Source: Thermoplasmata archaeon (lineage in GTDB: Archaea; Thermoplasmatota; Thermoplasmata; Methanomassiliicoccales; Methanomethylophilaceae). Taken from it: a stretch of DNA of 36,692 bases. How positions within the stretch are numbered: position 1 is the stretch's first letter; each line of letters opens with the position of its first letter. The translations under genes and the position numbers were made by a program. Location of the stretch: the NCBI GenBank assembly GCA_015063225.1, contig SUSU01000013.1:1-36692 (forward strand), read 5' to 3'. Below are positions 16,594 to 32,306 of the stretch, piece by piece. The notes below the pieces were generated by a model. It made no database searches. It saw only the letters and a list, made by a program, of their open reading frames with translations, and was not told the origin of the DNA.

Positions 16594-18324
16594 ATGTCCC
16601 GTTACGACGCGGTCTTCATCCACGCCCCGAGCGTCTATGATTTCCGTAAGAAACCCATCTTCTACGGTCCGGTCAGCGACGTCATCCCCTCCTCCCCCGT
16701 ATTCGAGATGTATCCCGTCGGGTTCATGACGATCTCCGCCCATCTCATAGCGGCCGGATTCAGGACCCGCATCGTCAACATCGCCAACCTGATGCTGTCC
16801 AGCGAGAAGTTCGATGTCGAGAAGAAGATCCGCGGAATCGACGCGGACGTGTACTTCATCGACCTCCACTGGCTCCCCCACGCGCACGGCGCGATAGAAC
16901 TGGCACGCATCGTTAAGAAATACCATCCCGACTCCAAGGTCGAGTTCGGCGGCTTCTCCTCCTCTTACTTCCGCCAGGAGCTCATCCTCTATCCCGAGGT
17001 GGACCTCGTCATGCGCGGGGACACCACCGAGTATCCCACTGTGCTCATGATGGAGGCCCTGAAGAAGGGCGGGGACCTCTCGAAGGTGCCCAATCTCATC
17101 TGGAAGGACTCCGAGGGGCGTGTCCATGAGAACGATGTCACGTGGGTGCTGGATGATCTGGATTCGGTCATATTCGATTACGGCGTGATGATCAAGTCGG
17201 TCATGAAGACCATGGACATCAACGGGTCCCTGCCGTGGAAGGCCTGGTCCAAGGTCCCCCTCACGTCCGTTTTCACCGTGCGCGGGTGCAGCATCAACTG
17301 TGCCGAATGCGGAGGTTCCCATGCCGCCAACAAGACCGTCGTATGCAGGAACCGTCCCGCCTACCGCAGCCCGGCGAAGCTCGCCGAGGACATGGAGGGC
17401 ATCCAGAACTACATGAGGGCTCCCATATTCATCGTCGGCGACATCCGTCAGGCGGGTCAGAAGTACTGCGACGACCTTCTGAGCGAGGTGCGCGAGAGGG
17501 GCATCGACAACCACGTTGTCATCGAGCTCTTCAGGGGTGCGTCCGCGGAGCATTTCTCCAACATCGACCGTTCGTTCCCCGGCGGGTGGAGCATCGAGTT
17601 CTCTCCCGATTCCTATGATGAAAGCGTACGTCTGGCTCTTGGTAAGGGATACACCAACGACGCCATCGACAAGACCCTTTCCGCGGCATTCCAGAACGGC
17701 TGTTCCCGCTTCGACCTCTTCTTCATGACGGGGCTTCCCAAGCAGACCCGCGACTCCGCCCTGGACACCGCGAGGGCGGCCGGGCACCTGTGGGACCAGG
17801 TGAATCCCGGGGACGGCCTGTTCATCTACGATTCTCCGTTCGCCCCCTTCGTCGATCCCGGGAGCCGCGCCTTCCAGGAGCCCGAGAAGTGGGGCTACAG
17901 GCTGAGGGCGAGGACGCTCGAGGACCACAGGAGGCTGCTCGACAGCCCCTCGTGGAAACATACCCTCTCCTACGAGACGGAGTTCATGACCCGCGACGAC
18001 ATCGGGGAGGTCTCCTACGATGCGGCCATCGAACTCACCAACGCCGAGATGGAGACCGGCAGGATAACCCCCGAGCAGGCGAAGGCCCGCAACGAGCGCA
18101 CGGAGACCGCAAGGCACGTCATGCACCTCGTGGACGAGGCGGTGGCCATCGAGGACCCTGCCGAACGCGACAGGGCCCTCTGGGCGGTCAAGGACGAGGG
18201 CATCCGCCTGATGGACAGCACCATCACGGACAAGAACGACCTCGACTGGAGGTCCGGTTCCATCTGGAGCAATTCGCCCCGCATCCTCGCGGGGCTCATG
18301 AAGTCCTTCTTCAGGAAGGCCTGA
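16594..18324 (+). CDS. B12-binding/radical SAM protein (Ta0216-like)
   Basis: The 576-residue protein has an N-terminal cobalamin-binding-type Rossmann domain (about 1-160, with FGGFSSSYF and a VMRGD segment). A radical SAM domain follows, with the cluster motif C232-x3-C236-x2-C239 in VRGCSINCAECGG and a GDIR strand further on. It resembles the archaeal B12-binding/radical SAM family typified by Thermoplasma Ta0216, whose reaction is not established. The usual DxHxxG cobalamin-ligand motif is not evident, so cobalamin may bind base-off without a His ligand. It ends the folD operon and abuts proC at TGATCA. A late lipid or cofactor modification role would be speculation. Confidence 0.75.
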   Translation: MSRYDAVFIHAPSVYDFRKKPIFYGPVSDVIPSSPVFEMYPVGFMTISAHLIAAGFRTRIVNIANLMLSSEKFDVEKKIRGIDADVYFIDLHWLPHAHGAIELARIVKKYHPDSKVEFGGFSSSYFRQELILYPEVDLVMRGDTTEYPTVLMMEALKKGGDLSKVPNLIWKDSEGRVHENDVTWVLDDLDSVIFDYGVMIKSVMKTMDINGSLPWKAWSKVPLTSVFTVRGCSINCAECGGSHAANKTVVCRNRPAYRSPAKLAEDMEGIQNYMRAPIFIVGDIRQAGQKYCDDLLSEVRERGIDNHVVIELFRGASAEHFSNIDRSFPGGWSIEFSPDSYDESVRLALGKGYTNDAIDKTLSAAFQNGCSRFDLFFMTGLPKQTRDSALDTARAAGHLWDQVNPGDGLFIYDSPFAPFVDPGSRAFQEPEKWGYRLRARTLEDHRRLLDSPSWKHTLSYETEFMTRDDIGEVSYDAAIELTNAEMETGRITPEQAKARNERTETARHVMHLVDEAVAIEDPAERDRALWAVKDEGIRLMDSTITDKNDLDWRSGSIWSNSPRILAGLMKSFFRKA

Positions 18325-19331: not shown

Positions 19332-19694
19332 ATGACGCTTATAGAAGCCTATTTGCCGATCATTTTCGTGGGATTGATATCCCTCGGATTTGCCCCCGCA
19401 GCATGGCTGACTTCCAGGCTCATTAGGCCTGAGAAGCCCTCTAAGTGGACAGAAGAGACGTACGAGTGTGGTTCGGTACCTATCGGTGATACCCGTATCC
19501 AGTTTAGGTTCCAGTACTACGCTTTTGCGCTGATTTTCGTGGTTTTCGATCTCGTCACTACCTTCCTGCTCATCTGGGCGGTTGCGTATGAGGGGCTCCC
19601 GAAGATCGCGACGATCTACATGCTCGCGTTCCTTGGAATCATGCTCCTGGGCTGTGCCTACGCCCTCAAAAAGGAGGAAGACATATGGATATGA
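19332..19694 (+). CDS. fpoA: Fpo complex membrane subunit A (NuoA-like)
   Basis: FpoA is a small membrane subunit of the complex-I-like proton pump at the quinone/methanophenazine-site end of the membrane arm. The 120-residue protein has three hydrophobic segments (about 8-30, 62-85 and 90-110). Between the first two is the family's loop motif KWTEETYECGSVPIGDTRIQFRFQYYAFAL. It is the first gene of the operon and overlaps fpoB by 10 nt. Confidence 0.95.
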   Translation: MTLIEAYLPIIFVGLISLGFAPAAWLTSRLIRPEKPSKWTEETYECGSVPIGDTRIQFRFQYYAFALIFVVFDLVTTFLLIWAVAYEGLPKIATIYMLAFLGIMLLGCAYALKKEEDIWI

Positions 19695-20251
19695 GGTTCT
19701 ACCCGCACGCTGTCGCAATGTCTGCGGATGAGTTCATGACTTGGTCATCCGCACTCATCAACGACCTGCTCAGTTCCGGCGTGAGGAAGACCATCGACAA
19801 GCTCACCGGGCCCGTCTGGACCTGGGCTGTCAAGAACTCCATGCACCCGCTGCACTGGGGTCTTGCATGCTGCGCTCTCGAGATGGCACAGGCCTCCGCA
19901 TCCCGTTTCGACGCTGAGCGTTACGGAATGATCTACAGGTCTTCCCCCCGTCAGACTGATATCCTTCTCGTCAACGGATGGATCTCCAAGAAGATCCGCC
20001 CCGACCTGAGGAGGCTTTACGAGGAAATCCCGTGGCCCAAATGGGTCGTCGCCATGGGCGAGTGCGCCATCTCCGGCGGACCGTGGTATGACTCGTACAA
20101 CACCGTCCAGGGTCTGGATCAGATCGTCCCTGTCGACATCTACATCCCCGGATGCCCCGCGCGTCCCGATGCGATGATCGACGGATTCATGCTGCTCCAG
20201 AGGAAGATTGAAGACTACTTCAGGAGAGGAGCCCTCCTCAAGAACCACTGA
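19685..20251 (+). CDS. fpoB: Fpo complex subunit B (NuoB-like, N2 cluster)
   Basis: FpoB carries the terminal [4Fe-4S] cluster that hands electrons to the membrane carrier. In this 188-residue protein the four ligands appear as the adjacent pair C62-C63 (GLACCALEM), C127 (MGECAISGG) and C157 (IPGCPARP). This is the complete set for a functional N2 cluster. The start ATG at 19685 lies inside the end of fpoA; a second ATG two codons on is an alternative. fpoC follows after GAGGTG. Confidence 0.96.
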   Translation: MDMRFYPHAVAMSADEFMTWSSALINDLLSSGVRKTIDKLTGPVWTWAVKNSMHPLHWGLACCALEMAQASASRFDAERYGMIYRSSPRQTDILLVNGWISKKIRPDLRRLYEEIPWPKWVVAMGECAISGGPWYDSYNTVQGLDQIVPVDIYIPGCPARPDAMIDGFMLLQRKIEDYFRRGALLKNH

Positions 20252-20262
20252 GGTGCTGAGAA

Positions 20263-20745
20263 ATGGCTTTTGAAGTTCGTGAATACGACCCCTCCTGGGA
20301 GAAGGAGATCGCCGACAAGCTCACCGCTAAGTTCGGCGACAAGATCGAGATCACTGGAACCGAGACCCGCCGCATTTTCGCTAAGGCCGGCAGGTGCGAT
20401 ATCCATGACATCAACAAGTTCCTCCGCGACGAGCTCGACTTCGAGCAGTGCGCCAACGTCCTCGGTGTCGATTACATCGACCACATGACCGTGGTCTATC
20501 ACATCGAGAGCTACCGCCAGTACCGCGGAGTCGTCATCGAGATCTGTGTGGACCTCCCCGCGGACGATCTGCACATCCCCTCCATGGCCGACATCTGGGG
20601 CGGAGCCAACTGGAACGAGAGGGAGACCTGGGAGCTCTTCGGAATCGTCTTCGACGGTCACCCGAGGCTTGAGCGCCTGCTCACCCCTCAGACCTACCAG
20701 TTCTTCCCCTTCAGGAAATCATACAAGCTCAGGGGTTGGGAGTGA
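20263..20745 (+). CDS. fpoC: Fpo complex subunit C (NuoC-like 30-kDa)
   Basis: FpoC is a hydrophilic scaffold of the connecting arm. The 160-residue protein contains the family signature ANWNERETWELFGIVFDGHPRLERLLTP (NuoC/30-kDa pattern) near residue 110, and a basic end FRKSYKLRGWE. It is separate from, not fused to, FpoD. The stop lies within GAGTGA, one base before the fpoD ATG. Confidence 0.94.
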   Translation: MAFEVREYDPSWEKEIADKLTAKFGDKIEITGTETRRIFAKAGRCDIHDINKFLRDELDFEQCANVLGVDYIDHMTVVYHIESYRQYRGVVIEICVDLPADDLHIPSMADIWGGANWNERETWELFGIVFDGHPRLERLLTPQTYQFFPFRKSYKLRGWE

Positions 20746-20746
20746 A

Positions 20747-22015
20747 ATGGCTAACGACAACTACGACAGCTCGAAATACCCGAAATACCCCATCGAGGGG
20801 TTCGACACCCTGCCCCCGGACATGCACCTCACCCCCGAGGCCATCGCCGAGGGAGCGCTCCCCGAGAACGTCCCCCGCAACCCCGCTGCCTGGACCCACG
20901 TCCACGGCGGAAGGATGGACACCGACCCCATGTGGATCACCATGGGTCCCCAGCACCCCTTCTCCCACGGTCTTTGGACCCTCAGGGTCAAAGCCGACGG
21001 AGAGATGGTCACCGATGCTGAGCCCATCATCGGTTACCTCCACAGGGGATGGGAGAAGGAGGTCGAGAACCGCACCTACCCTAAGATCATCCCCATGGCC
21101 GACCGTCTCTGCTACGCCGCATCCATGACGTACACCCACCTGTACTGCATGACCTGCGAGAAAGCGCTCGGCCTCGAGATTCCCGAGAAGACCAAGTACA
21201 TCCGCATCGTCGCCGATGAGATCAACAGGCTGCAGTCCCACCTCATGTGGCTCGCTGCCGTCGGTACCGACTTTGGTAACTTCACCGGATTCATCTGGGC
21301 CACCAGGGAGAGGGAGTACTGGATGGACATGAACGTCCGCCTCTGCGGAGCCCGTATGACCACCAACTACCCCCGCATCGGCGGTGTCCGCAACGACACC
21401 CCCGAGATCTTCGACAGGGACATCATCAGGTGCTGCGACAGGTTCGACAAGGCCCTCTGGGACATCATCACCCTGTTCGACGACAACTCCACCTTCACCA
21501 GCAGGATGATCGGTACCGGAATCCTCACCCGCGAGCAGTGTGCCAACCTCGGCATCACCGGACCCGCCATGAGGGGAACCGGCGTCGACTTCGATGTGAG
21601 GCGCGACGACCCCTACGACAACTACGACAAGATCGACTTCGATGTCCCCGTGCTCACCGCCGGTGACTCCTATGCCAGGTACGTCGTCCGTGTCGAGGAG
21701 ATGTTCCAGTCCACCCGCATCATCCGTCAGGCCATGGCGAAGATCCGCGCCCTCGGAAAGAGCGCCCCCTACCGCCTCAAGGCCCCGATGAACATCCCGG
21801 CCGGAACCACCCGCATGCGCATGGAGGACCCCCGCGGTACCTCCTACATGTACCTTGTCTCCGACGGTACCGACAAGCCCTACCGTCTCAAGGTGCGCAG
21901 CCCGATCTTCAACAACGTCTCCTCCTCGAAACAGCTGGTCACCGGTTGCAGGATTGCAGATATCCCTGTTATCATGGCCATGATCGACATGTGTCTCGGA
22001 GAGACCGACAGGTGA
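20747..22015 (+). CDS. fpoD: Fpo complex subunit D (NuoD-like 49-kDa)
   Basis: FpoD, related to NiFe-hydrogenase large subunits, forms with FpoB the cavity where the membrane electron carrier is reduced. The 422-residue protein has GPQHPFSHG, the EPIIGYLHRGWEK segment, RLQSHLMWL and the C-terminal DIPVIMAMIDMCLGETDR. As in other complex I types, the hydrogenase Ni-binding Cys-x2-Cys pairs are absent. About 50 residues before GPQHP form a Tyr/Pro-rich N-terminal extension. The start ATG at 20747 is set by AGTGA of the previous stop. The stop TGA is followed at once by TAG. Confidence 0.95.
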   Translation: MANDNYDSSKYPKYPIEGFDTLPPDMHLTPEAIAEGALPENVPRNPAAWTHVHGGRMDTDPMWITMGPQHPFSHGLWTLRVKADGEMVTDAEPIIGYLHRGWEKEVENRTYPKIIPMADRLCYAASMTYTHLYCMTCEKALGLEIPEKTKYIRIVADEINRLQSHLMWLAAVGTDFGNFTGFIWATREREYWMDMNVRLCGARMTTNYPRIGGVRNDTPEIFDRDIIRCCDRFDKALWDIITLFDDNSTFTSRMIGTGILTREQCANLGITGPAMRGTGVDFDVRRDDPYDNYDKIDFDVPVLTAGDSYARYVVRVEEMFQSTRIIRQAMAKIRALGKSAPYRLKAPMNIPAGTTRMRMEDPRGTSYMYLVSDGTDKPYRLKVRSPIFNNVSSSKQLVTGCRIADIPVIMAMIDMCLGETDR

Positions 22016-22019
22016 TAGT

Positions 22020-23195
22020 ATGGTAGAGTATCAGAGTATCCTCGACTGGATCAACTTCCCCGATCCTATGAGCAACCCCTACTATCCCTTCGGAGACGCC
22101 TACAACCTGCCCTACGATATCTCCATGAAGATCTGGGAGATCCTCGGCGGAACCATCGCCTGGCTCCTTAACCTGATCTTCCCCAACAACGGCATTTCCG
22201 GATGGCTCGTCTGCGACATGACCGCGAACTTCTTCGCGCTCGTCGTGTTCATGATTCTCATGTTCGCCGTGCCCTTCATCGGATGTCTCGTCTCCCTTTG
22301 GGAGGAGAGGAAGATCCTCGGACGCGCCATGGACAGGCGCGGTACCATGATCGGTATGTGGGGATTCCTGCAGTGCGTCGCCGACGGTCTGAAGACCTTC
22401 ATGAAGGAGAACGTCCAGTCCAAGGCCGTCGACAAGATGGCCTTCATGTGGACCTGCTCCCTGGTCATCGGTGTGTCCGTCCTCCTCGCCATCATGGTCC
22501 CCCTGTCCGGCAGGTGGTTCGTGGTCGACTATGGAAGCGGACTGCTTATCATCATGGCGCTCTACGCCCTGGCTCCCTTCTTCATCCTCGTGTCCGGATG
22601 GGCCCAGAACAACAAGTTCACCCTCATCGGTGGTATCCGTGCCGCCGAGATGATGCTTGCTTACGAGATCCCGATCCTGATCATCATCGCTACTGTCGCC
22701 CTCGAGGCCGGTACCTTCAACATCAACGGGATCGTCCAGGCCCAGTACGACACCATCCCCTACTTCATCCCCCAGTTCGTCGGTTTCATCACCTTCCTGT
22801 TCTGCGCCACCGCGGAAGCCGAGCGTGCCCCGTTCGACCTCGCGGAGGCCGAGTCGGAACTCGTCGAGGGTTGGCAGACCGAGTACTCCGGTATGAAATG
22901 GGGTCTCATCATGCTTGCCGACTATCTCAGGGGATACGTCTCCTGCGCCATGATCGTCATCATGTTCTTCGGCGGTTGGAACATCCCCTTCATCGGGGAC
23001 TGGAATAACTACATGCCCGAGTTCGTGTTCCTGCTCAAGGCGTGGTTCGTCTTCCTGCTGATGATCCTCATCAGGGTCGGTACCGCCCGTGTCAGGACCG
23101 ACCAGATCCTGAACCTCGGATGGAGGGTCTTCATGCCCCTCGCCGTGGCTAACCTCATGATCGTCCTCATGCTCAAGGTAGGAGGGATTATCTGA
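22020..23195 (+). CDS. fpoH: Fpo complex membrane subunit H (NuoH-like)
   Basis: FpoH links the carrier-binding site to the proton-pumping arm. The 391-residue, multi-pass protein has EERKILGRAMDRRG after its first long helix. It also has the conserved loop AEAERAPFDLAEAESELVEG followed by TEYSGMKWGLIMLADY. A hydrophilic lead of about 45 residues precedes the first membrane helix. GGTGATAGT at the previous stop is the ribosome-binding site. The stop overlaps the fpoI start as TGATG. Confidence 0.96.
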   Translation: MVEYQSILDWINFPDPMSNPYYPFGDAYNLPYDISMKIWEILGGTIAWLLNLIFPNNGISGWLVCDMTANFFALVVFMILMFAVPFIGCLVSLWEERKILGRAMDRRGTMIGMWGFLQCVADGLKTFMKENVQSKAVDKMAFMWTCSLVIGVSVLLAIMVPLSGRWFVVDYGSGLLIIMALYALAPFFILVSGWAQNNKFTLIGGIRAAEMMLAYEIPILIIIATVALEAGTFNINGIVQAQYDTIPYFIPQFVGFITFLFCATAEAERAPFDLAEAESELVEGWQTEYSGMKWGLIMLADYLRGYVSCAMIVIMFFGGWNIPFIGDWNNYMPEFVFLLKAWFVFLLMILIRVGTARVRTDQILNLGWRVFMPLAVANLMIVLMLKVGGII

Positions 23196-23944
23196 TGGCC
23201 ATGAATTATCTTGAAGAATACAGGGACGGACGCCACCGCACCTGGAAGGACCTGTGGGTCGTAAGGCCTATCCTGGTCTGCTGCAGGCTCCTCCTCAGGA
23301 CCACCATCCACCGCCCCGTCACCGTGCTTTACCCGTACGAGGCTCTCTGGAACCCCGACAACTACCGCGGCCGCCCCGCCCTGGAATTCAACAAATGCCT
23401 GGGCTGCGGCATGTGCGTCAGGATGTGTCCCTGCACGGCCATCATCCTGGTCGAGACCCCCGACGACGAGGGCAAACCCGTCATGCGCCCCCAGATCAAC
23501 ATGGGACGCTGCTCGTTCTGCGCCTACTGCGCCGAATACTGCCCCGTCGATGCCATGACCGTCACTCCCATCGTGGAGCTCGCCGAGTACACCCGCTCCG
23601 ACCTCATCTACGGTCCCCGCAGGCTTGCTTACGAGCACACCACCGAGGGCATGAAGGTCAAGTTCGAGGAGACCCTCATATCGGATTACAAGAACGGAAA
23701 CGGAGAAATCAGGCACGATCACTTCAGCATCGACCGCCCCGAGCTGGACGAGAAGAAGTGCATCAGCTGTAAGAAGTGCGCCAAGGTCTGCCCGGTCAAC
23801 GCCATCACCATGGTGGAGCACGGGACCAACGCCAAGGGCCGCCCGATCCTCTGGCCCGAGGTCAAATCCGACGTCTGCGTCAGCTGCAGCAACTGTATCG
23901 ACGCATGTCCGAAGAGCGCACTGAAAATGAAGGAGGTGCTGTGA
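23195..23944 (+). CDS. fpoI: Enlarged Fpo subunit I with four [4Fe-4S] motifs
   Basis: NuoI/FpoI proteins normally carry two [4Fe-4S] clusters that wire the input module to FpoB. Here the N-terminal 130 residues match that: C68/C71/C74/C78 and C106/C109/C112/C116, each ending Cys-Pro. The protein then continues through a charged linker of about 70 residues into two further complete motifs, C189/C192/C195/C199 and C228/C231/C234/C238. It is 249 residues in all, clearly longer than typical FpoI (around 130-180). With no fpoF in the operon, the extra ferredoxin-like domain could be the electron entry point, docking ferredoxin or heterodisulfide reductase. That role is inference. Confidence 0.95.
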   Translation: MAMNYLEEYRDGRHRTWKDLWVVRPILVCCRLLLRTTIHRPVTVLYPYEALWNPDNYRGRPALEFNKCLGCGMCVRMCPCTAIILVETPDDEGKPVMRPQINMGRCSFCAYCAEYCPVDAMTVTPIVELAEYTRSDLIYGPRRLAYEHTTEGMKVKFEETLISDYKNGNGEIRHDHFSIDRPELDEKKCISCKKCAKVCPVNAITMVEHGTNAKGRPILWPEVKSDVCVSCSNCIDACPKSALKMKEVL

Positions 23945-23945
23945 G

Positions 23946-24266
23946 ATGGGAATACTGGAAGATATCTGGGACTTCATCTACGACTTCTGCATGTACGTCT
24001 GGACGAACGGGGACCTCCTCGCCTTCCTGATTGTCGCTGCACTCGGAGTAGCTGGTGCCCTGTACGTCGTCACCGACAAGCAGCCCGTTCACAGCGCGTT
24101 CTACCTCGCGCTCGTGTTCGTGACTGTCGCCGTCTCCTACTTCTTCATGGAGGCCGAATTCATGGGTGTCATCCAGATGCTCGTGTACGTCGGTGCGATC
24201 ACCGTCCTGTTCGCGTTCTGCATCATGCTTACGCGCAGGCACATCATCGAGGAGGGAGAGGAATGA
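23946..24266 (+). CDS. fpoJ: Fpo complex membrane subunit J, N-terminal part (NuoJ-like)
   Basis: This 106-residue protein corresponds to the first half of NuoJ. It has three hydrophobic segments; the third, FMGVIQMLVYVGAITVLFAF, holds the family's most conserved helix. NuoJ is split into two genes here, as in Methanosarcina fpo operons. The ribosome-binding site is GGAGGTG in the end of fpoI. The stop overlaps the second J gene as ATGA, so the two halves are co-translated and presumably assemble together. Confidence 0.92.
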   Translation: MGILEDIWDFIYDFCMYVWTNGDLLAFLIVAALGVAGALYVVTDKQPVHSAFYLALVFVTVAVSYFFMEAEFMGVIQMLVYVGAITVLFAFCIMLTRRHIIEEGEE

Positions 24267-24559
24267 GCAAACGCCTCGCCCTCGGAGCCGCCGTCGCCGT
24301 CGCCCTCGTGGCGGTCCTCGCCGTCGGCATCTACGCCACTACCTGGGACATGAACTACGATGAACCCCAGGCCATTGAGTACGACCCCGTCGACGACGGA
24401 AGCGAACTCGGTCACAACAGTCTGAACTACCAGATCTTCGAGCACTACGGTCCCCTGCTGATCGTCCTCGCCCTGGTCATGTTCGGTGCCATGGTGGGCG
24501 GTATCTGTATCGCCCGCGAGGAGATCGAGGTCGATGAGGACAAGGAGGTCAAGGAATGA
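24263..24559 (+). CDS. fpoJ: Fpo complex membrane subunit J, C-terminal part
   Basis: This 98-residue protein has two hydrophobic segments (about 5-25 and 62-84). Between them is a polar loop rich in acidic residues and Asn, and an acidic tail follows. Position, size and the GPLLIVLALVMFGAMVGGICIA helix fit the C-terminal portion of NuoJ. By itself the sequence would be hard to assign, so context carries the call. It overlaps both neighbours by ATGA. Confidence 0.85.
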   Translation: MSKRLALGAAVAVALVAVLAVGIYATTWDMNYDEPQAIEYDPVDDGSELGHNSLNYQIFEHYGPLLIVLALVMFGAMVGGICIAREEIEVDEDKEVKE

Positions 24560-24858
24560 TCCCGATGGAGTACTTCCTGACCTTCGGTGCGATCCTCTTC
24601 GCTATCGGAGCCTTCGGTGTCATGACCAAGAAGAACACCGTCATCATCCTGATGTGCATCGAGCTCATGCTCAACGCTGCCAACATCAACTTCATCGCGT
24701 TCTCCGCGTTCCTCGGCGACGCGATGGGTCAGGTTATGGTCATCATGACCATCTCCGTCGCGGCAGCCGAAGTTGCCGTCGGTATCGCCATCGTCCTCAA
24801 CGCATACAAGATGCGCAAGACCACTGACGCTGATGACCTTACTACCATGAGGTGGTGA
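24556..24858 (+). CDS. fpoK: Fpo complex membrane subunit K (NuoK-like)
   Basis: FpoK is a three-helix MrpC-type subunit in the proton path. The 100-residue protein has both buried glutamates of the family: one in MCIELMLNAANINF, the other in SVAAAEVAVGIAIVL. The start is ATG 24556 overlapping the previous stop, or ATG 24565 directly after TGATCC; the second would shorten it by three residues and leave the first helix intact. GAGGTGGTGA at its end serves fpoL. Confidence 0.94.
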   Translation: MIPMEYFLTFGAILFAIGAFGVMTKKNTVIILMCIELMLNAANINFIAFSAFLGDAMGQVMVIMTISVAAAEVAVGIAIVLNAYKMRKTTDADDLTTMRW

Positions 24859-24859
24859 A

Positions 24860-26911
24860 ATGTTCGTAGAATATGTTTGGCTCACCGTCCTCATACCCCT
24901 GCTCTGCTTCGTGATAGTCGGTGCCCTCGGTACCCGCATCCGCCACGGTGGAGGCCTGATCACCGTCGCCGGTGCCGCCTGTTCGTTCATCATCGCGCTG
25001 CTCGCGTCCTACGAGTTCTTCACGAGCTCGGACTACTCGGAAGTCGGTTACGTCACCGAATCCCTCGAGTGGTTCACCGTCGGATTCGGCAGCACCTCGT
25101 TCACGATCAGCATCGGATACTACCTCGACTCGCTGTCGTGCCTGATCATGATGTTCGCTTCCTTCATCTCCACCCTCATCTTCGTGTACTCCCTCGGGTA
25201 CATGGGTGACCAGGGGATCAAGAAGCGCCGCTACTTCGCCGAGGTCGCCCTCTTCCTCACCGGAATGATCGGCTGCGTCACCGCCTCCAACATGGTCCAG
25301 ATGTTCATCTTCTGGGAGATCATGGGTCTCTGCTCCTACCTGCTCATCGGGTTCTGGGGCTTCGGCCACCCCGAGGCCAAGCAGAAGGCTTCCGCCGCCA
25401 AGAAGGCTTTCCTCGTCACGAGGGCCGGAGACGTCTGCCTCATGGGAGGTATGTTCGTCCTGTTCTTCGAGATGGGATCCCTCGACTACGTCACCATCTT
25501 CAACGGCGCCAACCTCGCCGCTGCGGACCCTGAGATGCTCGCCCTCGCCTCCCTGCTGATCTTCGGCGGTGCGATCGGCAAGTCCGCCCAGTTCCCGCTG
25601 CTCGACTGGCTGCCCGATGCGATGGCCGGTCCTACCACCGTCTCCGCACTTATCCATGCGGCCACCATGGTCAAGGCCGGTGTCTACATCGTCGCCCGCT
25701 GCTTCCCCCTGTTCTGCATGAACAGCGAGGTCATGCTCTTCGTGGCGATCATCGGTGGTGTCACCGCGTTCTTCACCGCCACCATGGCGATGAACAACTT
25801 CAACATCAAGAAGGTCCTCGCATACTCCACCCTCTCCCAGCTCGGGTACATGTTCCTTGCCCTCGGAGCCGGCGGATACCTGTTCGCCCTCGGAATCGAG
25901 GAGGGAAGCGAGGAGCTCATGGCCGCCGGTGCCCTCGGATACACCGCAGCCACCCTGCACATGGCCAACCACGCCTTCTTCAAGGCATGCCTCTTCCTCG
26001 GATCCGGTTCCGTCATCCACAGCACCGGCACCGAGGACATGCGTCTGATGGGCGGTCTGGGACGCAAGATGCCCATCACCTCCATCACCATGCTGATCGC
26101 CACCCTGTCCATCGCCGGATTCCCCTTCTTCGCGGGATTCTGGTCCAAGGATCTGGTCCTGGACGTCGCCATGGATGCCTTCAAGGACGCGGCCGACCCC
26201 ACCTGCTACGTGTTCATCCTCCTGTGGTTCCTCGGAGTCGTCACCGCCTTCATGACCGCCTTCTACATGTTCAGGCTCTGGTTCATGACCTTCAGCGGCA
26301 AGGCCCGCGAGAACGCCGAGCACTGCCACGGCGAGTCCCCGCGCAGCATGGCGCTGCCCCTGGTGGTCCTCTCCGTGTTCGCCCTCGCATTCGGATTCGT
26401 CCTGCTGATCGGCTACGACGGTATCTTCACCATCGAGCTGGTCGCCGGCAACTGGATTGTCGGCGGACAGGCCGGAGAGCCCGGATTCCACTGGATCGAG
26501 CACCTGTTCACCAACCCCTACACCTACCTGACCATCGTCCTCGTCCTCGTGTCGATCTCCCTGGCGTACCTCATGTACAGCCGCGGATCGGTCAACCCCG
26601 GAAAGTTCAACAAGGACGGGCAGTCCCTGCTCTACAGGGTCATCGCCAACAGGTGGTACCTGCCCGAGATCTACGACCAGACCTCCTGGAAGCTCGGATA
26701 CGGGGTCGCCAAGTGCGTCGACTACTTCGACCGCAACATCATCGACGGATCGGTCAACGGTCTCGCCAACGCCGTCATCGGCGGCGGCGATGCCGTCAGC
26801 AAGGCCCAGGACGGTAACGTCCACACCTACTCCGCCGTCGTCATCCTCGGCATCGTCCTGCTCTTCGCAGTGGCTGCTGCCCTGGTCATCTTCTATGGGG
26901 TGATCGCATGA
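24860..26911 (+). CDS. fpoL: Fpo complex antiporter-like subunit L (NuoL-like)
   Basis: FpoL is the distal proton-pumping subunit. The 683-residue multi-pass protein has the key Glu in FIFWEIMGLCSYLLIGFW, and LLDWLPDAMAGPTTVSALIHAATMVKAGVYIVAR with the conserved lysine. Further segments (NNFNIKKVLAYSTLSQLGYMF, HAFFKACLFLGSGSVIH) line the channel. The C-terminal extension, about 130 residues with hydrophobic ends, fits the lateral helix and anchor. It overlaps fpoM as ATGA, preceded by GGGGTGATC. Confidence 0.96.
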   Translation: MFVEYVWLTVLIPLLCFVIVGALGTRIRHGGGLITVAGAACSFIIALLASYEFFTSSDYSEVGYVTESLEWFTVGFGSTSFTISIGYYLDSLSCLIMMFASFISTLIFVYSLGYMGDQGIKKRRYFAEVALFLTGMIGCVTASNMVQMFIFWEIMGLCSYLLIGFWGFGHPEAKQKASAAKKAFLVTRAGDVCLMGGMFVLFFEMGSLDYVTIFNGANLAAADPEMLALASLLIFGGAIGKSAQFPLLDWLPDAMAGPTTVSALIHAATMVKAGVYIVARCFPLFCMNSEVMLFVAIIGGVTAFFTATMAMNNFNIKKVLAYSTLSQLGYMFLALGAGGYLFALGIEEGSEELMAAGALGYTAATLHMANHAFFKACLFLGSGSVIHSTGTEDMRLMGGLGRKMPITSITMLIATLSIAGFPFFAGFWSKDLVLDVAMDAFKDAADPTCYVFILLWFLGVVTAFMTAFYMFRLWFMTFSGKARENAEHCHGESPRSMALPLVVLSVFALAFGFVLLIGYDGIFTIELVAGNWIVGGQAGEPGFHWIEHLFTNPYTYLTIVLVLVSISLAYLMYSRGSVNPGKFNKDGQSLLYRVIANRWYLPEIYDQTSWKLGYGVAKCVDYFDRNIIDGSVNGLANAVIGGGDAVSKAQDGNVHTYSAVVILGIVLLFAVAAALVIFYGVIA

Positions 26912-28404
26912 GCGGTTCTCTGATTGTTCCTCTGATAATCCTGATCCCCCTGATCGGAGCCATCATCACGATGTTCCTTTCGGGTTCCAAGGCCAGGTAC
27001 GCTTGGATAGTCAGCACCGCAGTCGCTGCGGCCGACCTCGTCCTCTGCGTCTTCATGATGGTCGTCGGCGACTACGCCGCCGGCGACTACGACTTCTGCG
27101 CCAGCTGGATCGACACCGCCGGCCTGAAGATGAGCCTCATCTTCACCGTCGACGGTCTCAGCATCCTGATGCTGTTCCTGACCGCCTTCCTCGAGGTCCT
27201 GGTGATGGTCTTCTCCTACAAGGAGAGGGACCAGGCCAACAAGTTCTTCGCGCTCCTGCTTCTCATCGAAGTCGGACTCATGGGTGTCTACACCGCCGCG
27301 GATTACTTCCTCTTCTACATCATGTGGGAGATCACCCTGATTCCGATGTACTTCCTCATCTCCTGGTACGGAGGTCCGAGGAGGCACTACTCCGCGATCA
27401 AGTTCTTCATCTACACCCACGTGGCCTCCCTGGTCATGCTCATCGGTATCTTCGCCCTCGCCTTCGAGGCTGCGGCCGTCAACGGAGGAGTCGTCGACTT
27501 CTCCTTCGAGGCCATCAAGCATGCCGCCGGGTTCTTCGATGAAGTCTTCCAGGTCGTCGTCTTCGGACTGCTCTTCTTCGGGTTCCTCGTCAAGATGCCT
27601 GCGGTTCCGTTCCACACCTGGCTGCCTGACGCGCACACCGAGGCACCTACCGCCGGATCCGTCCTGCTGGCCGGTGTCATGCTGAAGATGGGTTCCTATG
27701 GTATCATCCGCATCAACCTCGAGGTGCTCCCCCTCGGAGCCGCCGACTGGCAGTGGGTCCTGATCATCATGGGTATCCTCGCCGCCGTCTACGGAGCGTA
27801 CGCCTGCATCGCGCAGCGCGACCTCAAGAAGATGGTAGCATACTCCTCCATCAGCCACATGGGTCTCGTAATGATGGCCATGGGCTTCCTGTCCGACATC
27901 GGAATCCAGTTCGCTGTCTTCCAGATGTTCGCGCACGGTCTCATCTCCGCCATGCTCTTCATGGTCTGCGGATGGGCCGGCCACTCCGTCGGGACCAGGG
28001 AGATCCCCCTCCTGGGAGGTCTCGCTTCCAAGCTCCCGAAGTTCGCCGGAATGATGATGTTCTGCTTCATGGCCTCTCTCGGCCTGCCCGGACTCATCGG
28101 ATTCTGGGGCGAGTTCGGTATCATCTTCGGATTCTACGAGTTCCTCGTGGACGAGAACATGATCTACCTGCTCGTGTTCAGCCTGCTGTCGCTCCTGCTC
28201 ACCGCCGGTTACTACCTGTGGGCCATGCAGAGGACCCTCTTCGGTGACCTCACCGAGAAGATCGACCTCTCCCACGTCCACGACTTCAACCGCGTGGAGA
28301 TGGTCTGCCTGTGCGTCCTCGCCGCCGCCATCGTGGCGTACGGTCTGTGGCCCGACCTGGCCCTGAGCTTCATCGACACCTACTACCTCATCGGGGTGAT
28401 CTGA
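26908..28404 (+). CDS. fpoM: Fpo complex antiporter-like subunit M (NuoM-like)
   Basis: The second antiporter-like pump subunit, 498 residues. It has MWEITLIPMYFLISWYGG with the essential Glu, and TWLPDAHTEAPTAGSVLLAGVMLKMGSYGIIR with the pump lysine. RDLKKMVAYSSISHMGLVMMA follows, and then HGLISAMLFMVCG. Its end contains GGGGTGATC, the ribosome-binding site for fpoN one base after the stop. Confidence 0.96.
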   Translation: MSGSLIVPLIILIPLIGAIITMFLSGSKARYAWIVSTAVAAADLVLCVFMMVVGDYAAGDYDFCASWIDTAGLKMSLIFTVDGLSILMLFLTAFLEVLVMVFSYKERDQANKFFALLLLIEVGLMGVYTAADYFLFYIMWEITLIPMYFLISWYGGPRRHYSAIKFFIYTHVASLVMLIGIFALAFEAAAVNGGVVDFSFEAIKHAAGFFDEVFQVVVFGLLFFGFLVKMPAVPFHTWLPDAHTEAPTAGSVLLAGVMLKMGSYGIIRINLEVLPLGAADWQWVLIIMGILAAVYGAYACIAQRDLKKMVAYSSISHMGLVMMAMGFLSDIGIQFAVFQMFAHGLISAMLFMVCGWAGHSVGTREIPLLGGLASKLPKFAGMMMFCFMASLGLPGLIGFWGEFGIIFGFYEFLVDENMIYLLVFSLLSLLLTAGYYLWAMQRTLFGDLTEKIDLSHVHDFNRVEMVCLCVLAAAIVAYGLWPDLALSFIDTYYLIGVI

Positions 28405-28405
28405 G

Positions 28406-29932
28406 ATGGATGTAACATGGATTACCGACCTCATAGGAAACTACGCGGCAGTCCTTCCGATGCTCATCCTGATCGTCGGAGCCCTGCTCCTGCCCGCCAC
28501 CAACTACGTGTTCAAGAAGCGCCTGCCGGTCACCTCCATCGCGATGGTCATCGTGCTCATCTCGCTGGTCTTCAACATCCTCCTCCTCACCGGAACGGTC
28601 GAGGACGGAGGTGTGAAGTCCGCGTTCGCGCACACCGCCGCGGGCCTCTTCGCATACGATGACTTCAGCGGACTGATGATCCTGCTCTTCCAGATCGTAC
28701 TCGCCATCGTCGTGTTCGTCTCCGGTGAGAGCAACGAGACCACCAAGCTCCACTTCGGCGCCTACATGAGCCTCCTGCTGATCGCAACGACCGGCATGAT
28801 GTTCGTCGTCACCGCCGTGGACCTCATCGGCATCTTCGTCGGTGTGGAGTGCGTCTCCATCACGTCCTACGCCCTCGTCGCCCTCAAGAGGAACGATCCC
28901 CGTGCCTCCGAGGCCGCCGTCAAGTACGTCGTCATCGGCGGTCTGTCCACTGCCCTCACCATCTATGGTATCTCCATGATCTACGGGGCTCTGCACACCC
29001 TTACCATCGCCGACCTCGGCCTTGCCCTCGGTGCCTACGGATACTCCTGGGCATTCATCCTCGGTGTCATCGCCATGGTCGCCGGTTACGGGTTCAAGAT
29101 CGCCGCGGCTCCCTTCCACATGTGGGCGCCCGACGTGTACGAGGGTGCAGCCACCCCCGTCAGCATCCTGCTGGCCACCGGGTCCAAGAAGATGGGTCTC
29201 GCCGTCTTCATCAAGGTCTTCCTGGTGATGTTCGTTGCCGCCAACGCCCTCAGCGGAATCGACAACGACCCCATGCAGTACCTGTTCGCCATCATCGCTG
29301 CCATCACCATGACCATCGGTAACATCGTGGCCATCGCCCAGCACAACATCAAGAGGATGCTCGCTTACTCCTCCGTTGCGCAGGCCGGTTACATCCTGAT
29401 CGTCATGGCCGTCATGAGCGAGTACGCCCTCACCGGCGGTATCTTCCACATGTTCACCCACGTGTTCATGAAGGGCGGTGCCTTCCTGGTCGTCGGCGCC
29501 CTCATCTTCGCCGGCATCGGTGAGAAGATCAGCGACTACAACGGTCTCGCCAAGCGCGCCCCCTGGCTCGCTTTCGCGATGATGATATTCCTGATGTCCC
29601 TCGCGGGTGTGCCTCCCCTGGCAGGATTCACCTCCAAGTTCGTCCTGTTCTCCGGAGCCATCTACGGTGACGACGGTGTCATCACCCAGTGGATCTGGCT
29701 GGCCTTCGTCGCCATCCTCAACTCGGCCATCTCGCTGTACTACTACGTGAAGGTCATTCGCGCCATGTACATCGAGAAGCCCGCCAAGGATGCCAAGGCC
29801 GACCTGAAGCTCCCCAAGACCTTCTGTGTCGCTATCGCAGTCTGCGCCGTCCTGGTCGTCGTGCTCGGTATCTACCCCGCACCCATCCTGGACCTCTGCG
29901 CCGAGGCTGCTTCCGTAGTGTTCGCGATCTGA
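28406..29932 (+). CDS. fpoN: Fpo complex antiporter-like subunit N (NuoN-like)
   Basis: The third antiporter-like subunit and last gene of the operon, 508 residues. Features are GVECVSITSYALVALKRNDPRASEAAVKY (Glu in the fifth helix), FHMWAPDVYEGAATPVSILLATGSKKMG with the channel lysine, and HNIKRMLAYSSVAQAGYIL. A strong terminator follows 8 nt after the stop. There is no fpoO and no fpoF, so the pump encoded here is the 'headless' form described for Methanomassiliicoccales. Confidence 0.96.
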   Translation: MDVTWITDLIGNYAAVLPMLILIVGALLLPATNYVFKKRLPVTSIAMVIVLISLVFNILLLTGTVEDGGVKSAFAHTAAGLFAYDDFSGLMILLFQIVLAIVVFVSGESNETTKLHFGAYMSLLLIATTGMMFVVTAVDLIGIFVGVECVSITSYALVALKRNDPRASEAAVKYVVIGGLSTALTIYGISMIYGALHTLTIADLGLALGAYGYSWAFILGVIAMVAGYGFKIAAAPFHMWAPDVYEGAATPVSILLATGSKKMGLAVFIKVFLVMFVAANALSGIDNDPMQYLFAIIAAITMTIGNIVAIAQHNIKRMLAYSSVAQAGYILIVMAVMSEYALTGGIFHMFTHVFMKGGAFLVVGALIFAGIGEKISDYNGLAKRAPWLAFAMMIFLMSLAGVPPLAGFTSKFVLFSGAIYGDDGVITQWIWLAFVAILNSAISLYYYVKVIRAMYIEKPAKDAKADLKLPKTFCVAIAVCAVLVVVLGIYPAPILDLCAEAASVVFAI

Positions 29933-30238: not shown

Positions 30239-31207
30239 ATGGCAGGAGGATTGCTGGACTGCATCTCGGACGAGATGGACCATGTCGATGAGATCATCGA
30301 CGGCATTTGCGAGTCCGGCACCCCCGAACTGACCGAGATGTGCCGCTACGTCCTTTCCAACCACGGCAAGCGTCTCCGCCCCGCCATGTCCATACTCTTC
30401 TACCACGCGCTCGGCGGCGACGGTTCCGATTCCGTCGCCAGCACCGCCGCGGCCGTCGAGATAGTGCACAACGCCACCCTCATCCACGATGACATCAACG
30501 ACGCCGGCGAGCTCAGGAGGGGCGCCAAGGCCCTCTACCGCGAGTACGGCCTCAGCAAATCCATCGTCGCCGGCGATTACCTCTATGCCATGGGCTTCAG
30601 GCTCCTGGGCACCACCAGCTCCGACATCGTCGGATACGTGCTGGACGCCGCCGTCGGACTCGCCGGGGGCGAGTTCAATCAGAGGGACTACGAGCACAAC
30701 ACGGACGTCGACGAGGCGCAGTACATCAAGATCATCGGCGGCAAGACCGCCCGTCTCTTCGAGGCCTCCGCGAAGTGCGGGGCCTATTATGCCAGACCCG
30801 GGGACATCGAGGCCATCGACCTCGCCGGGGAGTTCGCCTTCCTGGCCGGCCACGCGTTCCAGATCGCCGACGACCTCCTGGACATCATCGGCGACGTCAA
30901 GGCCACAGGCAAGCGCGTCGGCAACGACATCGTGGACGGCAAGCCCACCATCCCCGTCATCTACGCCATGGAGGATCCCGAGTACGGTCCCCGCATCCGC
31001 GAGATATTCACTTCCTCTTTGACTGATTACAAGGAGGCCGAGGAGGCCATCTCCCTCATCCTGAAGACCGATTCCGTCGAGAGGTGCAGGGCGCTCGCCA
31101 CCGCATATGCGGACAGGGCGAAGGCCGTGATCTCGAAGATCCCCGATTCCGTCTACAGGGAGACCCTCGTCAACGTCGTCGACTACATCGTCTCCAGGGA
31201 CAGGTGA
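30239..31207 (+). CDS. idsA: trans-Prenyl diphosphate synthase (geranylgeranyl-type)
   Basis: It builds all-trans prenyl diphosphates, the precursors of archaeal lipids. The 322-residue protein has GKRLRPAM, the first Asp-rich motif HDDIND (D84, D85, D88) followed by ELRRG, GGKTARLFEASAKCGA, and the second Asp-rich motif FQIADDLLDIIGD. Product length (C15, C20 or longer) cannot be fixed by eye, although the second geranylgeranyl reductase directly downstream favours C20. It ends in GGTGAG, which serves the next gene. Confidence 0.92.
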   Translation: MAGGLLDCISDEMDHVDEIIDGICESGTPELTEMCRYVLSNHGKRLRPAMSILFYHALGGDGSDSVASTAAAVEIVHNATLIHDDINDAGELRRGAKALYREYGLSKSIVAGDYLYAMGFRLLGTTSSDIVGYVLDAAVGLAGGEFNQRDYEHNTDVDEAQYIKIIGGKTARLFEASAKCGAYYARPGDIEAIDLAGEFAFLAGHAFQIADDLLDIIGDVKATGKRVGNDIVDGKPTIPVIYAMEDPEYGPRIREIFTSSLTDYKEAEEAISLILKTDSVERCRALATAYADRAKAVISKIPDSVYRETLVNVVDYIVSRDR

Positions 31208-31211
31208 GCAT

Positions 31212-32306
31212 TTGTTCGCAGACACCGACATCCTCATCGTCGGCTCCGGCCCCGCCGGCAGCGTCACCGCCCGTTACGCGGCGCAGAGCGGCCTCAAGGT
31301 CACCATGATAGAGCAGCGCCCCGAGGTCGGGGTGCCCGTCCGCTGCGGCGAGCTCGTCCCCTCGGTGGAGGAGATACAGGGGATGTTCCCCAACCTGACC
31401 GGCGCCGAGGAGCTCTTCGAGGTCCCCTCCGAGCTCAGGCGCAGGGAGATCGAGGGCATCAGGCTCGTCGACCCCAAGGACAGGAGATACGAGTTCCCCT
31501 TCACCGGATACACCACCGACCGCGACCGCTTCGACCAGCATCTGGCTCGTAAGGCCGTAGATGCCGGTGCGGAGCTCATCACGAGCTGCCGTTTCATGGA
31601 TGCTTCCGACGGTGTCGCCAGGACCACCATGGGCGACATCTCCTACAAGATAATCATCGGCGCGGACGGGCCTGGTTCCCGTACCGCCAAGGCCCTCGGC
31701 CTCCCCGCCAACCGCCACCCCTACCCGGCGGTCACCTCGCAGGCCGACGGCGACTTCGAACCCCTCGTCCAGATGTTCTTCGGAGGCATCGCCCCCGGCG
31801 CCTACGGATGGATCATCCCCAAGGACAACGAGGCCAACGTCGGCGTGGGTTTCAGCCCCAGGTTCGCCCACGGGAAGCTCTCCGATTACATGGACAGGTT
31901 CGTGGCGCAGCACAACCTCGTCCCCACCAGGAAGCTCGAGGGCAAGTTCGTGCCCAGCGAGGGCCCCATTGCACGCACCTACACCGAGAACGGCATGCTC
32001 GTCGGCGATTCCGCCGGATTCGTCATCTCCGTCAACGGCGGAGGCATCCCCCTGGCCATGATCGGCGGGAGGATATGCGCGGAGGCGGCCGTGGAGCGCA
32101 TCAGGAACGGCACCACCCTCGACCACTACCAGGCCGCCTGGGACAATGTGCTGGGGAAGCCCCTGAGGATCGCGGCCAAGAACAAGAAGCTGGCCGACAC
32201 CTTCGCCTTCCACTCCGACTGGACCACCGGGCTGTGCATGAGGATCCTCGGACAGAAGCACATGTCCAACCTGATCCGCTGCAAGCACCTCTACTTCGGC
32301 AACTGA
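31212..32306 (+). CDS. Digeranylgeranylglycerophospholipid reductase family FAD enzyme (second copy)
   Basis: This flavoprotein is predicted to hydrogenate the isoprenoid chains of archaeol-type lipids. The 364-residue protein shows ILIVGSGPAGSVTARYAA, IEQRPEVGVPVRCGE (a Cys in the family's substrate-site loop), IIIGADGPGSRTAKALG and MLVGDSAGFVISVNGGGI. The start is TTG at 31212, behind GGTGAG (31203-31208). Pairing with the prenyl synthase makes this copy the better candidate for the membrane-lipid reductase. It meets nob1 stop-to-stop at TGATCA. Confidence 0.9.
   Translation: MFADTDILIVGSGPAGSVTARYAAQSGLKVTMIEQRPEVGVPVRCGELVPSVEEIQGMFPNLTGAEELFEVPSELRRREIEGIRLVDPKDRRYEFPFTGYTTDRDRFDQHLARKAVDAGAELITSCRFMDASDGVARTTMGDISYKIIIGADGPGSRTAKALGLPANRHPYPAVTSQADGDFEPLVQMFFGGIAPGAYGWIIPKDNEANVGVGFSPRFAHGKLSDYMDRFVAQHNLVPTRKLEGKFVPSEGPIARTYTENGMLVGDSAGFVISVNGGGIPLAMIGGRICAEAAVERIRNGTTLDHYQAAWDNVLGKPLRIAAKNKKLADTFAFHSDWTTGLCMRILGQKHMSNLIRCKHLYFGN

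Follow-up and report, generated by a model that had tools for sequence, protein, structure and literature searches.

A second NuoI-like [4Fe-4S] domain on FpoI, a putative ferredoxin relay of headless complex I in Thermoplasmatota

How do low-potential electrons enter a complex I that has neither an F420 nor an NADH head? The question is raised by the window analysed here, a stretch of 36,692 nucleotides from a Thermoplasmata archaeon of the Methanomethylophilaceae (contig SUSU01000013.1), which carries a complete fpo operon in the order fpoA-B-C-D-H-I-J(N)-J(C)-K-L-M-N, with fpoF and fpoO absent from it. The genes, and the evidence on which each was named, are as follows.

19332..19694, + strand: fpoA (family profile match)
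19685..20251, + strand: fpoB, the NuoB subunit with the N2 cluster (family profile match)
20263..20745, + strand: fpoC (family profile match)
20747..22015, + strand: fpoD (family profile match)
22020..23195, + strand: fpoH (family profile match)
23195..23944, + strand: fpoI/nuoI-like gene, 249 residues with four [4Fe-4S] motifs (TIGR01971, 149.2 bits, cut-off 113.05)
23946..24559, + strand: fpoJ as two genes, 23946-24266 and 24263-24559 (open reading frames, operon position, homologues in the same order at related loci)
24556..24858, + strand: fpoK (open reading frame, conserved order in related loci)
24860..29932, + strand: fpoL (24860-26911), fpoM (26908-28404) and fpoN (28406-29932) (open reading frames, conserved order)
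30239..32306, + strand: polyprenyl synthase (30239-31207) and geranylgeranyl-reductase-like gene (31212-32306), directly downstream of the operon and syntenic in related loci

The two downstream genes fit a membrane prenyl carrier. Searches of the window genome (G000, 91.5% complete) with FrhB_FdhB_C (PF04432, FpoF-type) and with Complex1_51K (PF01512, NuoF) gave no match. An FpoF encoded elsewhere in this genome was accordingly rejected, and the FpoF partner that defines the FpoI of an F420H2 dehydrogenase is missing. With its fpoABCDHIJKLMN genes and neither FpoF nor NuoEF, the locus has the make-up of a headless 11-subunit complex I, in agreement with the earlier note on this DNA, which had described an fpo operon lacking fpoF.

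The unusual component of this operon is FpoI. Its open reading frame starts with an ATG, overlaps the fpoH stop codon by 1 nt and ends at an in-frame stop, and the 249-residue product contains 19 Cys and four CX2CX2CX3CP motifs, each located by motif scan and by the invariant Cys of an alignment.

23195..23614, + strand: residues 1-140, N-terminal NuoI domain, an N-terminal helix and a 2[4Fe-4S] domain with N6a/N6b equivalents (best family NuoI, 103.6 bits; best Foldseek matches NuoI/NdhI chains)
23396..23431, + strand: motif 1, CLGCGMCVRMCP, residues 68-79, Cys68/71/74/78
23510..23545, + strand: motif 2, CSFCAYCAEYCP, residues 106-117, Cys106/109/112/116
23615..23740, + strand: residues 141-182, interdomain linker, pLDDT about 74-88
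23741..23941, + strand: residues 183-249, extra C-terminal NuoI-like 2[4Fe-4S] domain (best NCBIfam family NuoI; second ferredoxin fold in the model)
23759..23794, + strand: motif 3, CISCKKCAKVCP, residues 189-200, Cys189/192/195/199
23876..23911, + strand: motif 4, CVSCSNCIDACP, residues 228-239, Cys228/231/234/238

When the residues of FpoI were shuffled 200,000 times, one motif arose in 77 shuffles and two or more in none, which bears out the claim of four complete motifs in a single protein. Pfam analysis matched Fer4 to four stretches and Fer4_7 to two. All 16 motif Cys are invariant across 34 Thermoplasmatota species in an alignment whose rows were picked as four-motif forms, and in a less selected set each of 44 Methanomassiliicoccales loci encodes exactly four motifs. 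The score against the NuoI subfamily model TIGR01971 lies above its cut-off for the whole protein, with 103.6 bits for the N-half alone and 56.4 for the C-half, and the protein departs from this subfamily in having four motifs instead of two. Against the FpoI model NF040612 (F420H2 dehydrogenase, 135 positions) it scores 108.3 bits, below the cut-off of 180. The window FpoI is a variant of the NuoI subunit and an atypical member of its family.

The extra half was compared with NCBIfam families, among which NuoI outscored PorD, RnfB and ordinary ferredoxins, with the same outcome for the extra domains of three divergent homologues. Since, in addition, the N- and C-halves align over a common RPxL..KC start and a long inter-motif hairpin, the extra half is probably a second NuoI-like 2[4Fe-4S] domain, formed when the NuoI dicluster domain was duplicated within the protein. 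A single-chain AlphaFold model of FpoI (mean pLDDT 80, pTM 0.65) contains two ferredoxin folds, and its Foldseek matches in the PDB are headed by NuoI/NdhI chains, followed by the polyferredoxin FwdF. The proposal that the added part is a ferredoxin-like dicluster domain is thereby upheld. The charged linker of about 70 residues described in the earlier note was right as a span, 72 residues separating Cys116 from Cys189, and too long as a linker: the first ~25 of these residues are part of the NuoI fold, and the true linker of ~50 residues has 17 charged residues and a net charge of -3.

The linker is 48-52 residues long in Methanomassiliicoccales and shorter in most other forms from the phylum, mostly 28-36 residues. 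Its variation in length (28-64 residues overall) and in sequence, together with the separate ferredoxin fold in the model, would suit a mobile tethered ferredoxin that swings on the linker as a captive carrier and raises the local concentration of the donor. We consider such a carrier distinctly improbable, because the linker was modelled at pLDDT about 74-88 and has some conserved positions, from which it is probably ordered, and because the six-motif forms described below resemble a chain of domains.

We then consider whether the extended FpoI goes with the missing head. FrhB_FdhB_C was absent from 29 of the 31 genomes with an extended FpoI, the two exceptions being weak matches outside the fpo operons, and NuoF (Complex1_51K) was absent from all 26 extended-FpoI genomes of the first set. 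FrhB_FdhB_C was present in each of the 11 archaeal genomes whose two-motif complexes come from ANME-2, Methanothrix, Archaeoglobus, Hydrothermarchaeota and similar lineages, and wherever an archaeal genome of this set combines FrhB-family genes with a complex of non-Thermoplasmatota type, its FpoI has two motifs. A second genome set yielded two clear FrhB-like exceptions (G001 and G005), which are not likely to be FpoF, since their scores fall well short of the FpoF and FrhB cut-offs and hdrA-like genes adjoin them. Complex1_51K matches in four genomes (G001, G147, G198, G205) were rejected as the NuoF of complex I, as they belong to Hox-like, RnfC and formate-dehydrogenase-like clusters, and nearby two-motif open reading frames of ~390 residues, first suspected to be FpoF, proved to be CCG (TfrB/HdrD-like) proteins. 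In families f2 and f3 of the order, an FrhB-like protein is encoded beside hdrA-like genes (L236:1342-2484, - strand; L239:958-2127, + strand), possibly forming an F420-linked heterodisulfide reductase.

Two-motif FpoI/NuoI proteins were found in ANME-2 (128-131 residues), Archaeoglobus (134), Hydrothermarchaeota (151), Desulfurellaceae/Hippea (139) and Chloroflexi, and also in Methanothrix (178-203) and the Thermoplasmatales-like families f22 and f30 (140-170). Thus, FpoI proteins with an FpoF partner do not generally share the four-cluster form, as ANME-2, Archaeoglobus and Hydrothermarchaeota have two motifs. The FpoI of Methanosarcinales and the FqoI of Archaeoglobus resemble the window protein in lying between fpoH and fpoJ and in having an N-terminal helix followed by a 2[4Fe-4S] NuoI domain; the ANME-2 and Archaeoglobus proteins, however, end after two motifs at 128-134 residues and have an FrhB/FpoF-family partner in the genome, whereas the window protein continues into a second dicluster domain. 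The converse does not hold. The tested f22 and f30 genomes have neither FrhB nor NuoF. Their NuoI, from the same archaeal class and an equally headless 11-subunit complex, differs from the window protein in its 140-170 residues, its two motifs and its separate FpoBCDH branch. Methanothrix resembles the window in that its Fpo' operon lacks FpoF, ferredoxin has been proposed as donor and the C-terminus of FpoI is longer than in the FpoF-type proteins. Nevertheless, the Methanothrix extension is a Lys/Ala-rich tail of 53-74 residues without Cys (L140, L141, L149, L151, L157), as opposed to a ferredoxin domain, and Methanothrix genomes contain FrhB-family genes elsewhere, outside the fpo operon, while none matched in the window genome. 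Because the f22, f30 and Methanothrix complexes are headless with two motifs, the extra domain is no general requirement of headlessness, which weakens the earlier suggestion that it replaces a missing input module. At least two different C-terminal additions to FpoI therefore occur in headless complexes, the ferredoxin domain and the Methanothrix tail.

To delimit the extended form, 147 Methanomassiliicoccales genomes were searched. A strong FpoI match was obtained in 128, the weak cases being mostly incomplete assemblies, and among 74 good-quality genomes G090 alone had no strong match. Outside the order, the four-motif form extends to Marine Group III/Poseidoniia (L103-L107, L136), to MCR-less Thermoplasmata (L093, L094, L097) and to lineages from soil (L095-L101). 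Families f8 and f24 (L053, L057, L065, L067-L069, L072, L086) and the MAGs branching with them (L109, L114, L117, L118, L121, L124) encode five or six motifs. Six are present in L053:7321-8229 (- strand), L057, L065, L086, L114 and L124, giving up to three ferredoxin domains per NuoI; five are present in L067-L069, L072, L109, L117, L118 and L121, in some of which one motif lacks a Cys, for example CKSHGKCAEVC in L067. Two cases with fewer motifs (L102, L130) were rejected as true short forms, being cut by contig ends. MCR was detected, among the genomes tested, only in Methanomassiliicoccales and Methanosarcinales-type genomes, and haem-copper oxidase was detected in nine MCR-less genomes with an extended FpoI, so that probable aerobes have it too. 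A methanogen-specific origin of the extra domain was rejected, because relatives without MCR possess it.

In soil Thermoplasmata (L055:7432-8992, L060, L061, L062, L064, L066, L095-L101, L246-L252), fpoB and fpoI form a two-gene cassette apart from the fpoA-C-D-H-J... operon, and some of these cassettes have genes for an FAD-linked oxidase and a CCG protein close by. These pairs were rejected as orphans; the same genomes encode the remaining genes of the complex at another site that lacks fpoB and fpoI, indicating relocation.

The number of origins was addressed with a quick tree of FpoB, FpoC, FpoD and FpoH, from which FpoI was left out. The multi-motif rows group together, and a single change suffices once L102 (cut by a contig end) and the two long-branch rows L070 and L228 are removed; the basal branch against L135 is weakly supported at 34. 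The L228 FpoI (genome G147) is a divergent protein of 331 residues whose motif 3 lacks one Cys, and its genome has an Rnf cluster. The tree is consistent with a single origin of the extended FpoI, without proving it, and the extra domain is probably an ancestral feature of a large Thermoplasmatota complex I lineage and not an invention of methanogens. The picture of an entry port purpose-built for this methanogen order is not supported, given that the same form is found in MCR-less Thermoplasmatota, several with haem-copper oxidase, and that the FpoBCDH tree is consistent with one old origin.

What the extra domain does is best approached from the donor. In photosynthetic NDH-1, a well-studied complex I that likewise lacks NuoEFG, ferredoxin binds to NdhI and passes its electrons straight to N6a (PMC7021789). 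For Methanothrix, clusters of FpoB or FpoI have been proposed as acceptors of ferredoxin electrons (PMC10470525), and in Angelarchaeales, where an hdrD-like gene lies near complex III, ferredoxin has been suggested as the donor of complex I (PMC9038741). Reviews describe membrane-bound ferredoxin oxidation in M. luminyensis, whose headless Fpo takes up the electrons and passes them to HdrD (PMC7374477, PMC7485788); in the light of these reports, the donor is less unsettled than had been stated. A second NuoI-like dicluster domain on NuoI, the very subunit on which ferredoxin docks in NDH-1, would most simply be an extension of the wire combined with a docking surface. We therefore lean, with moderate confidence, towards a built-in ferredoxin relay in an 11-subunit complex I that lacks both an F420 and an NADH head. 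Reduced ferredoxin in solution would hand over electrons at the C-terminal domain; MvhADG/HdrABC would supply it in this gut methanogen, and enzymes such as 2-oxoacid:ferredoxin oxidoreductases in the relatives. The iron-sulfur wire would be longer by two clusters outward, running from ferredoxin through the predicted C-terminal clusters to N6a, N6b and N2, and from N2 electrons would pass to a membrane prenyl carrier (quinone). The carrier would deliver them to HdrD in the methanogens and to a respiratory chain in their relatives, and this flow would power proton pumping.

The relay draws support from the four motifs with their 16 Cys invariant in 34 species, from the near-complete lack of FrhB_FdhB_C and the lack of NuoF in extended-FpoI genomes, from the two motifs in FrhB-carrying archaeal genomes with a non-Thermoplasmatota complex, from the NuoI-like C-half with its retained hairpin and modelled second fold, and from the NDH-1 precedent and the ferredoxin donor of M. 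luminyensis. Against it, the structural support comes from a single-chain model with a pTM of 0.65, and headless complexes with two motifs exist. NdhI resembles the window protein as the NuoI subunit of a ferredoxin-accepting complex I without NuoEFG and is among its best sequence and fold matches, yet it has two clusters only, ferredoxin docking at N6a with help from NdhV/NdhO (PMC7021789); with N6a alone sufficient to accept electrons in NDH-1, two further clusters are unneeded for input. Nor is a ferredoxin-attracting patch conserved. The net charge of the C-domain is +4 in the window and -7 to +5 across the four-motif set, slightly basic in many Methanomassiliicoccales and negative in several other lineages; a basic docking patch as a phylum-wide feature was rejected, and since the charge varies in sign, electrostatics do not decide ferredoxin docking. 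Finally, the association of extension with headlessness is confined to one clade and about one evolutionary event, so correlation alone cannot show function.

Another reading is a domain that takes no part in donor docking, serving mainly as a structural cap that steadies the exposed tip of the peripheral arm, where FpoF or NuoEFG would otherwise sit, or as a redox buffer in which electrons are stored. The existence of two-motif headless NuoI implies that extra clusters are unneeded for input, and the loss of Cys from one motif in some five-motif forms (as in L067) that not every cluster is indispensable. We regard this function as improbable, for all 16 Cys, which a purely structural cap could do without, are kept across Methanomassiliicoccales and most relatives.

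Alternatively, the C-domain could be a port on which HdrD, HdrABC-MvhADG or a TfrB/HdrD-like CCG protein docks, channelling electrons directly without diffusible ferredoxin and, in methanogens, perhaps providing an exit to HdrD. Methanomassiliicoccales are without HdrE, and HdrD has been proposed to associate with Fpo (PMC7374477, PMC10804542, PMC6147122); their longer linker would also suit a partner. CCG-domain genes lie near fpo (L053, L057, L065, L072) or fpoB-fpoI (L055, L060, L061, L062, L066) in MCR-less lineages, and CCG proteins are encoded in all 22 genomes tested. Such proteins are common, however, occurring in 12 of 14 control genomes, and the intervening genes vary by lineage; we treat the neighbouring CCG genes as a lead to a docking partner and not as a test of one. 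The window fpo operon contains no hdr gene, and MCR-less genomes, several with haem-copper oxidase, have the extended FpoI. A docking port thus appears unlikely, and docking of HdrD or HdrA, as the earlier note had it, is not the general reason for the domain, many of the lineages concerned being without methanogenesis.

It may be, though we put this forward tentatively, that the Thermoplasmatota complex I lineage exchanged the detachable input module for one of its own making. The NuoI dicluster would have been duplicated once to yield four clusters, and some lineages would have gone on to five or six motifs, a polyferredoxin arm serving methanogens, other anaerobes and aerobes alike. The polyferredoxins FwdF and MvhB likewise chain 2[4Fe-4S] domains as wires, and the window protein matches both in sequence and FwdF in fold, but they are separate subunits of other enzymes, outside complex I and with more clusters. 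Such an arm would be an independently evolved means of taking in ferredoxin electrons, different from FpoF, NuoEFG, the Methanothrix Lys-rich tail and the NdhS/V/O set of NDH-1, and would bear on low-potential electron entry into the headless complex I of Methanomassiliicoccales (gut and rumen methane) and uncultured Thermoplasmatota. The extra domain is unmentioned in the literature searched, including a full-text search on FpoI, 4Fe-4S and C-terminal, a scope outside which most subscription papers fell, so that prior mention is possible. Being conserved, removable and carried on one subunit, it makes the relay directly testable, and extended FpoI offers a sequence marker for this type of headless complex I in metagenomes.

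Two minor features of fpo loci were also observed. At three loci (L093, L094, L097), from genomes labelled Methanomassiliicoccales without an MCR match, the fpo operon contains a pair of fpoM-like genes, possibly providing an extra proton-pumping subunit. Upstream of the fpo operon, a gene for a B12-binding radical SAM protein is present both in the window (16594-18324, + strand) and in distant Thermoplasmata (L053:12849-14585, + strand), which indicates that the fpo neighbourhood is old.
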